The notes under the pieces were generated by a model that saw only the letters and a program-made list of their open reading frames with translations, searched no databases and was not told where the DNA came from. From assembly GCA_015068455.1 (NCBI GenBank), contig SVKO01000001.1, forward strand, positions 241,825 through 305,824: DNA of 64,000 nucleotides. Direction: 5' to 3'. Positions within the stretch are counted from its first letter, which is position 1. Each line of letters starts with the position of its first letter. This DNA comes from Oscillospiraceae bacterium (GTDB lineage Bacteria > Bacillota > Clostridia > Oscillospirales > Oscillospiraceae). Both the position numbers and the translations under genes were made by a program. Positions 1,432-58,575 of the stretch are shown here, one piece after another.

Positions 1432-1671
1432 GATGTTACAGGAATACTGTCGTTTTTTGTAGAATTGCCAGATTTATATTGATATTTTGCATGTGATCGT
1501 TCAAATAATCTGTGAAAAATGACATAGCCATCTAAAAACCAGCGCCACCGCCGGGCATGACAAGGCGCAGGGGAGGACGGGGGCCGGTTCTGTGTCTTTA
1601 TCCATCAAGGCAGAGAACCGTCCCCTGTCCTGTTTCGAAGCCACCTTCCAAATGCCCATACCAAACAAAAA

Positions 1672-50516: not shown

Positions 50517-50521
50517 TTTAT

Positions 50522-50780
50522 GCAGATAGAGGCGCACTGTGCGATCAGTATCCTTCCCGCCAAGGCCCGCAGGTTTTGGGTTGGTGAAAGGCGTTCGGTG
50601 CCGAAGGCAGGGGCTGCTGCGGTGCTCCTGTGCTGGGCCGGCAAACCAATAGCTGCCGGACTGTCGCATCTTTATGCGGAGGGCTATCGCTTCAATTTCC
50701 GGCATCCGTCTTCGCTGCAATCGCGGCGGAGTTCGATGTGTTTTAAGGAGCGGCCTTCCCGGAGGACGCTCTTTTTTAGC
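50522..50780 (+). promoter_or_regulatory. Lysine riboswitch with terminator
   Basis: The leader of dapA matches the lysine (L-box) aptamer in order: AGATAGAGGCGC at the 5' side, CAGTATCCTT, GGTGAAAGGC...GTGCCGAAG, TGCTGGGCCGG, and GGACTGTCGC...GCGGAGGGCTATCGC closing the aptamer at about 50692. The expression platform ends with a hairpin (GAGCG...CGCTC, 50748-50771) and TTTTTT at 50772-50777. Lysine binding should favour the terminator and shut off dapA-dapB-lysC. Confidence 0.85.
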
Positions 50781-57963: not shown

Positions 57964-58039
57964 GGACGGTTAGCTCAGCTGGTAGAGCATCTGCTTGACG
58001 TGCAGGAGGTCAGGGGTTCGAGTCCCTTATCGTCCACCA
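57964..58039 (+). tRNA. tRNA-Val (anticodon GAC)
   Basis: A 76-nt cloverleaf with acceptor GGACGGT/ATCGTCC, D-arm GCTC..GAGC, anticodon stem TCTGC/GCAGG and loop TTGACGT, giving GAC for Val. Discriminator A and CCA are encoded. The T-arm is around GGTTCGAGTCC. Its 3' end is copied twice downstream. Confidence 0.95.
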
Positions 58040-58045
58040 AAAAAG

Positions 58046-58074
58046 TACCGCAGCTTTTGCTGCGGTATTTTTTT
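58046..58074 (+). terminator. tRNA-Val terminator
   Basis: TACCGCAGC / GCTGCGGTA with a TTTT loop and seven T's, six bases after the CCA end. The same terminator recurs at 58417-58445. Confidence 0.9.
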
Positions 58075-58084
58075 GCCCATGAGA

Positions 58085-58203
58085 AAGGGACTCGAAAGAT
58101 CAGTTCCGACAGTCCGGGGGACTGTCGGGCGCCGCCGCAACGGGCGGCGCAACCTTACTTTTCTGCCTTGGCAGAAACGCGGCGAGTCCCTTATCGTCCA
58201 CCA
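58085..58203 (+). repeat. Structured unit 1 after tRNA-Val, ending in a 21-nt tRNA tail copy
   Basis: AAGGGACTCGAA (58085-58096) is antisense to the tRNA-Val T-arm. It is followed by a 10-bp hairpin CCGACAGTCC/GGACTGTCGG (58106-58128), GCGCCGCC/GGCGGCGC (58129-58150), and a TTTCTGCC/GGCAGAAA hairpin (about 58160-58176). It ends in an exact copy (58183-58203) of tRNA-Val positions 56-76 including CCA. Outer antisense and sense pieces can pair, making a cloverleaf-like shape. The ACAGTCC/GGACTGT hairpin is shared with the tRNA-Tyr array. Confidence 0.9.
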
Positions 58204-58204
58204 T

Positions 58205-58243
58205 AAAAGGATTGCTATCTTGACAAAGGTAGCAATCCTTTTT
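58205..58243 (+). terminator. Terminator behind the first tRNA-Val tail copy
   Basis: AAAAGGATTGCTA / TAGCAATCCTTTTT, directly after the CCA of the copy. Confidence 0.85.
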
Positions 58244-58275
58244 ATAATCAAATGCGATAAGTCATACGGATGCGG

Positions 58276-58395
58276 TATGATGAAATCGACGTGATCAGCG
58301 GTGGGCTATGGATGCGCCAGCTAAGCGCAGACCCTGGCCCATCGGCTGATCGTTTATGTTACGAAATTTAACGATAACCCCGATTTTGTTAAAAT
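58276..58395. other. Gene-free spacer with inverted repeats between the two tRNA-Val units
   Basis: It contains an imperfect stem GATCAGCGGTGGGC / GCCCATCGGCTGATC (about 58292-58350) enclosing GCGC/GCGC, and a weaker AAATTTAAC / GTTAAAAT. No ORF or known RNA is recognised. It may be a further, diverged structured unit. Confidence 0.45.
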
Positions 58396-58407
58396 AGCAA
58401 TCTATAG

Positions 58408-58532
58408 CCAAAAAAGTACCGCAGCTTTTGCTGCGGTATTTTTTTGCCCATGAGAAAGGGCCTCGAACAATCCGTTCCGACGCTCCGGAGGCCTGTCGGT
58501 CCGCCCGCGGGAGCGTCCCTTATCGTCCACCA
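58408..58532 (+). repeat. Structured unit 2 after tRNA-Val
   Basis: Positions 58408-58460 repeat 58037-58089 exactly (53 nt: CCA end, terminator and the start of the antisense piece). AAGGGCCTCGAA (58456-58467) is the antisense T-arm with one mismatch; CCGAC/GTCGG (58477-58499) is a decayed form of the conserved hairpin. An 18-nt tRNA-Val tail copy with CCA ends the unit (58515-58532), two bases shortened in the T-loop. Confidence 0.88.
58417..58445 (+). terminator. Second copy of the tRNA-Val terminator
   Basis: Identical stem and T-run to 58046-58074, again preceded by CCA. Confidence 0.85.
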
Positions 58533-58537
58533 AAAAA

Positions 58538-58575
58538 GAAACCTCTTTTGTTCCTCGGGCAAAAGAGGTTTCTTG
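58538..58575 (+). terminator. Terminator behind the second tRNA-Val tail copy
   Basis: GAAACCTCTTTTG / CAAAAGAGGTTTC, then TTGTTGTT; it lies directly behind the copied CCA. Confidence 0.75.

Follow-up and report, generated by a model that had tools for sequence, protein, structure and literature searches.

At the 3' ends of many tRNA genes, in this bacterium as in related ones, lies a family of short insertions. It is best explained, at a probability of roughly 45%, as a set of non-coding structured cassettes that take their arms as copies from the local tRNA, most simply by template switching during replication. A tentative formulation of what this would amount to is new mobile DNA with borrowed ends, where a core inserts behind tRNAs and rebuilds both repeats from each host, by template switching at the T-arm and possibly without any transposase. 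In published descriptions available as open papers, no family seems to fit the cassette; a search of these papers for palindromic elements behind tRNA genes returned only a short motif of M. kandleri (PMC5217627), and silence there does not amount to novelty. The order within a unit is tRNA (S1), a terminator (t) or short spacer, AS, E and S2, where S is a repeat of positions C56-A76 of the adjoining tRNA, AS is an inverted copy of that segment, and E, the conserved core of about 59-95 nt, consists of several hairpins and falls into at least two classes (type 1, and Tyr-type or type 2). The tRNA is left intact, with its own 3' end present on both sides of the unit, and E is common to the loci of one genome while AS and S are locus-specific.

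The window, meaning the whole 64,000-nt stretch that was analysed, contains such units behind tRNA-Val and behind tRNA-Tyr. At the Val locus, the initial annotation had described a terminator, an antisense T-arm, hairpins, an exact 21-nt copy of the tRNA end and a second, decayed round beginning with a 53-nt direct repeat, and all of these statements hold:

57964-58039, + strand: tRNA-Val(gac), found by ARAGORN and Rfam
58019-58039, + strand: S1, positions C56-A76 of tRNA-Val
58040-58074, + strand: t1, a terminator-like hairpin (AAAAAGTACCGCAGC..GCTGCGGTATTTTTTT) directly after A76, from fold and sequence
58085-58094, + strand: AS, AAGGGACTCG, the reverse complement of tRNA-Val positions 56-65
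58095-58182, + strand: E, a type-1 core with three hairpins (hp1 58106-58128, hp2 58129-58150, hp3 58160-58176), from the type-1 model R1 and covariation
58183-58203, + strand: S2, an exact 21-nt copy (CGAGTCCCTTATCGTCCACCA) of tRNA-Val C56-A76
58204-58407, + strand: t2, a terminator-like hairpin, and an unrelated stretch separating the two rounds
58037-58089 and 58408-58460, + strand: first and second copies of the 53-nt direct repeat (terminator and start of AS)
58456-58514, + strand: AS' and E' of the second round, decayed, within a weak R1 match (58456-58575, 28.4 bits)
58515-58532, + strand: S3, an 18-nt truncated copy of tRNA-Val 59-76
58533-58575, + strand: t3, a terminator-like hairpin behind S3, from sequence

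The AA that follows AS complements T54-T55 and extends the inverted T-arm copy to 12 nt (AAGGGACTCGAA, 58085-58096), and the ACAGTCC/GGACTGT hairpin lies at 58109-58115/58119-58125. Model R1 matches the unit at 58085-58193 with 103.5 bits, a score to be read with the Val row itself being part of the model, and 58040-58250 has a folding energy of -111 kcal/mol (z = -10.9), a value reached by 0 of 200 shuffles. The unrelated stretch of about 205 nt between the rounds has a promoter-like TTGACA-17-TATAAT (58220/58243); this consensus-like promoter sits inside a terminator-like hairpin, and the last 53 nt of 58204-58407 match at 83% a sequence near a PF05635 gene in genome G179 (L359). At gathering score, no Rfam family except tRNA was found at the Val and Tyr loci, the only other match in the window being a lysine riboswitch (RF00168, 80 bits) at 50519-50694. 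Elsewhere, in G088, a Gut-1 RNA (RF01706, L220:637-713) lies about 800 nt upstream of a unit.

The tRNA-Thr/tRNA-Tyr pair near 2.3 kb is on the strand opposite to tRNA-Val. Behind tRNA-Tyr the plan is that of the Val locus but the arms are Tyr-specific, as had been proposed from the sequence:

2278-2362, - strand: tRNA-Tyr(gta), unlinked to tRNA-Val
2131-2225, - strand: Tyr unit 1, with AS at 2212-2225, a type-2 core and S2, exact over 21 nt, at 2131-2151
1995-2078, - strand: Tyr unit 2, with a Tyr-type core (model R2), a class matched in seven families
1850-1933, - strand: Tyr unit 3, with a Tyr-type core (model R2)
1708-1788, - strand: Tyr unit 4, with a Tyr-type core (model R2)

Beyond the last Tyr unit there is a repeat, GACAGGGGACGGTTCTCTG (window 1590-1640, - strand), and similar sequence occurs behind tRNA-Thr(ggt) of the same genome.

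When the downstream regions of all 44 tRNA genes of the source genome (G000) were searched, at least 13 were found to carry units with tRNA-specific arms, some of them degraded, or truncated where a contig stops (Arg-acg, Arg-ccg, Gln-ctg, Gly-ccc, Leu-tag, Lys-ttt, Ser-gct, Ser-gga, Trp, Val-gac, Tyr, Glu-ttc and Leu-caa), and related arrangements with other cores stand behind Ala-ggc, Ala-cgc, Leu-cag and Leu-taa; relatives carry units as well. Over 283 tRNAs there are 71 sense copies of at least 12 nt, which start exactly at C56 in 46 cases, at 57 in 11 and at 55 in 6, and which end exactly at A76 in 36. The middle of AS frequently deviates from a perfect copy, and AS is frequently in two parts. 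The inner one, adjoining E, is complementary to positions 56 to about 66; farther out come an A-rich spacer and then an outer part that prolongs the terminator arm and is complementary to the acceptor/CCA end. This outer part is present in 19 of 48 first units (shuffled mean 5.4, maximum 10). The arms also follow the tRNA between species, in that the T-stem of tRNA-Lys differs between G001 and the source genome (TCCAGCGGG vs TCCCGCGGG) and the G001 units carry the local version.

A chance origin of these local matches is excluded by shuffling. With downstream regions permuted among tRNAs within each of four genomes whose tRNA loci were widely sampled (G000, G001, G152 and G211; 143 tRNAs), 19 local S copies stand against a shuffled mean of 0.63 (maximum 5; 2000 shuffles), and 23 local AS copies against 0.93 (maximum 5). 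The claim that a recurring process, not chance duplication, had produced the Val and Tyr loci is borne out by other tRNAs, species and families of the order, which show the same arrangement. Ordinary local duplications of tRNA ends near unrelated hairpins would accord with the tandem unit arrays seen at Arg-acg, Tyr and Glu, but they can hardly be the explanation, as one core recurs in seven families at similar distance and with the same C56 boundary, and they are contradicted by the shuffling, by the clustering and covariation of the cores, and by the further R2 loci described below. Among 34 pairs of terminators behind S1 and S2 (t1 and t2), 12 exceed the 99th percentile of likeness between random terminators, some of them within tandem arrays, and the terminators at L216 and L386 match completely or almost completely. 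Since t1 and t2 are related in these 12 cases, the tRNA end and its terminator were often duplicated together, while in the remaining two thirds of pairs the likeness is no greater than random.

The pairing in E behaves as expected of a structured RNA, with covariation above controls. In the type-1 alignment, which comprises 12 cores plus 10 nt each of AS and S, 19 of 25 pairs change on both sides, and the covariation score is 0.596, against 0.20 when shuffled and at most 0.13 with slid partners. The Tyr-type class (AAAGGCGGCTCTTGGC-hairpin-GCAACCGCCGTGG-CTTTTCCGCAGAAAAG) has strong sequence conservation. On wider alignment, the hairpin that had been noted as shared by the Val and Tyr loci became stronger instead of weaker. 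In addition, unpaired bases in E are kept across families, which suggests a binding partner or function that pure template switching would not need. On the strength of such features the units could be read as a selected cis-acting RNA for tRNA 3' processing, termination or readthrough control, where AS could pair either with the 3' end of the tRNA itself or with S2, as two alternative folds, and selection would keep AS and S matched to the tRNA. The strong covariation and conserved unpaired bases are in keeping with this, as are the placement of units on the tRNA strand at all loci except one, the spacing of first units (almost all 41-58 nt from the tRNA among the 73 type-1 matches with a same-strand upstream tRNA), and the presence of some units within tRNA arrays, where they are probably transcribed. 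Such a role is nevertheless improbable as the explanation, given the patchy occurrence of the units (15 of 106 genera), their absence from orthologous tRNAs of sister species, the terminator-like hairpin that precedes most units, the many decayed or truncated S copies, one E that is inverted, and occupied tRNAs that have no isoacceptor class in common. Covariation in such hairpins is also no proof of RNA function, since template switching itself can generate changes of this kind. The earlier proposal of either a structured RNA family or a non-autonomous element targeting the tRNA 3' end is compatible with the data in both of its forms. Four features had escaped that annotation, namely that the arms are copies of the local tRNA and not borne by the element, that the core occurs in either orientation, that the terminator is dispensable, and that terminators are often duplicated with the tRNA end.

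Across genomes, which were mostly fragmented assemblies with one genome per species, R1 matches 21 of 200 genomes of the family, in 15 of its 106 genera, and units were not found in G004 and G008 of the same family. Beyond the family, R1 gave one match among 394 genomes of the order, behind a tRNA-Met in G342, and its arm mismatches that tRNA. Model R2, for the Tyr-type class, matches 31 of the 394 genomes, in seven families and nearly always close behind a tRNA. Among 28 further R2 loci, independent of the building of the model, 25 have a same-strand tRNA, mostly at 9-58 nt, and in most of these S or AS matches the local tRNA over at least 8 bases from C56. A search of genome contigs with the exact type-1 core pattern, which is too specific and fits type 1 of one species, gave 35 matches, two of them clostridial ones lacking a tRNA and lying in coding-like sequence. 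E clusters by genus more than by isoacceptor: on a tree of 61 type-1 cores, poorly resolved and taken to support the statement on clustering only, the genus label changes 12 times (minimum 7, shuffled mean 34) and the isoacceptor label 29 times. Cores at different loci of one genus seem, from their sequences, to exchange whole hairpin modules.

An insertion is seen at tRNA-Phe of a conserved Val-Asp-Phe-Gly-Cys array, where G152 has a unit with a Tyr-type core and G211 and G068, of the same genus, are empty. The comparison of orthologous filled and empty loci that the initial annotation had called for gives here a net insert of 117 bp with a direct repeat of 21 nt, or 27 counting TTTTTA, and G152 and G211 share 95.5% identity across the 291 nt that begin with the second S. 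At tRNA-Gly(ccc), near a contig end, E of G211 aligns to that of its sister species G152 only when reversed (score 54.5 vs -11), with the same arms and with both ending at C56. Units that lack an upstream tRNA are often at contig ends or behind a tRNA 3' fragment fused to foreign DNA (as before the units at L243, L216, L263, L252, L246 and L215); these fragments are likely att ends left by elements that use these tRNA genes as integration sites, and several units have lost their tRNA to sequences that resemble such elements. In the source genome, a stretch of about 15 kb with a serine-recombinase-like end (G000:C1:362654-377643; L064, L073) appears to have split the tandem unit array of tRNA-Ser(gct) inside a terminator hairpin.

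The main rival explanation is a dedicated T-loop recombinase, which we regard as unlikely. Here, a tyrosine recombinase would insert [S t AS E], in the form of a small circle, into the T-loop, with crossover within positions 54-60; like an integrative element, the circle would bring its own tRNA 3' end and terminator, and the folded single strand AS-E-S may be the recombination site. For class II phage Ms6 the proposed integrase crossover is a 7-bp T-loop segment that contains C56 (PMC1762012), and the sharp left boundary, intact tRNA and tandem accretion of the units would fit such a reaction, as would the loci with differing terminators after S1 and S2 and the use of the same tRNAs by larger elements, as indicated by the tRNA 3' fragments with foreign DNA before several units. 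Against this, a tRNA-specific circle leaves the spread of E unexplained when E clusters by genus more than by isoacceptor, a third of loci have two related, hence local, terminators, and the bases of E to the left of C56 fail to restore the T-stem half-site. Integron attC boxes (RYYYAAC/GTTRRRY) are present in 0 of 60 cores on either strand, and there was no real match among viral contigs, phages and plasmids for the patterns and Val unit tried: the type-1 pattern gave two matches in viral contigs, both lacking a tRNA and in coding-like DNA, the Tyr-type pattern gave none, and the Val unit had no match in plasmids and phages.

Mobilisation in trans by a protein such as the PF05635 four-helix-bundle protein of rRNA intervening sequences is rather less plausible still. 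The gene is frequent behind tRNAs here, with 12 of 31 copies within about 450 nt downstream of a same-strand tRNA, and it occurs in 12 of 20 unit-bearing genomes vs 2 of 14 others; the sole copy found in the source genome (G000:C11:20199-20510, L337) separates tRNA-Lys from its unit, and a copy in G193 comes directly after E. However, PF05635 is absent from the unit-rich genomes G152, G155 and G211, most of its tRNA-linked copies are behind other palindromic arrays that lack AS, E and S, and no reverse transcriptase was found in unit-rich genomes, so that the tie between these genes and the units is weak. The tRNA-linked PF05635 genes (L337 of G000, and L345, L347, L348, L350, L354, L356, L360, L361, L362, L364 and L365) mostly stand behind long arrays of palindromic repeats (TGATATC.., GTGAAAT.., TTCACTATTCAC..). 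As for other enzymes, a Y1 transposase of the RAYT type (PF01797) had no match in G000, G150, G152, G155 and G211, and a reverse transcriptase was likewise not found in these five, with eight unit-bearing genomes in all giving no RVT_1 match; both are unlikely drivers there because they are undetected in several unit-rich genomes.

Taken together, the local matching, the filled and empty pair, the inversion of E and the related terminators say that the local tRNA is the source of the arms, as in the preferred reading. In the mechanism that we propose, E would spread from tRNA to tRNA, and S and AS would not be carried in but arise as copies of the host tRNA, at insertion or later, with template switching in replication as the simplest machinery. 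The T-arm is nearly universal, and its loop (TTCGAA in many tRNAs) almost complements itself. The T-arm could act as a nearly universal bridge by which E passes between tRNA loci. Template switching has been described to give inverted copying, homogenised inverted arms and inverted spacers (PMC8604942), and can form new RNA stems as well as mend existing ones (PMC8794818). The units show both homogenised arms and spacer inversion. On the other side, the reported spacer inversions span a few bases (PMC8604942) whereas E is about 59-95 nt, a simple inverted copy is at odds with the A-rich spacer that usually replaces the middle of AS, and among the compared genomes no birth event with a donor E was caught. 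Fold-back at the terminator was considered as the necessary origin of AS and rejected, as several Tyr-type units are 9-23 nt behind a tRNA with no terminator.

Several known systems share part of this plan. Like the units, integrative elements with a T-loop crossover (class II integrases, mycobacteriophage Ms6) insert into the T-loop, keep the tRNA intact with a second copy of its 3' end and leave a direct repeat from the T-loop to CCA, as do the copies that start at C56 (46 of 71); by contrast, the units are only 60-170 bp, are non-coding and have an inverted T-arm copy, and one core serves many tRNAs with ends matching each, not a single tRNA with an element-borne att. At 59-95 nt the cores are too short for an integrase gene of their own; an integrase may act in trans. 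MITEs and REP/BIME palindromes are likewise short, non-coding, palindromic, multi-copy and found in both orientations, whereas the inverted repeats of the units are those of the host tRNA and vary from copy to copy, in place of shared element-specific termini, and the Y1 transposase that accompanies REP/BIME with RAYT was not detected in the five genomes named above. Integron cassettes resemble the units in having a folded site (attC) with conserved structure and variable sequence and in forming tandem cassettes, but the units lack the attC boxes and a cassette gene, and their target is the tRNA end. The 23S rRNA intervening sequences (PF05635) are also stem-loop insertions at structured RNA genes, inside the mature RNA, while the units are behind the tRNA and mostly have no PF05635 gene. 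Retroelements (group II introns, retrons, DGRs) differ from the units in the reverse transcriptase, for which the eight genomes gave no match. Template-switch mutations and inverted triplications (quasipalindrome correction) can give the same S-AS-S order, arm homogenisation and spacer inversion; these are sporadic and local, unlike the units with a conserved core at the turn and dozens of loci.

Ends of its own are what defines a transposable element; in the units, the target supplies them. If confirmed, this would be a repeat that takes its borders anew from every host site as it spreads; it would help to explain the build-up of hairpins behind tRNA genes in this order, and would provide a natural system for testing propagation by template switching alone. 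It also cautions that a tRNA 3' fragment found behind a tRNA need not be the scar of an integrated phage. In G001 (L125-L140) and G068 (L277-L300), tRNAs that have no unit often have other multi-hairpin arrays of several kinds right after the terminator, suggesting that tRNA 3' flanks gather palindromic elements in general. A further core class (GGTTCGAACACAAGGATT...AAATCCGAAGTGTCACGGAG) stands behind Ala and Thr tRNAs, with tRNA copies that start later (L301, L312, L317, L330, and L080 at Ala-cgc of the source genome). Behind a tRNA-Met (L386:370-620), an inverted copy of the anticodon arm (TTCGGGTTATGAGCCCGAA) is combined with another core class and a copy of the tRNA 3' end, and the first and last terminators of this array are nearly identical.
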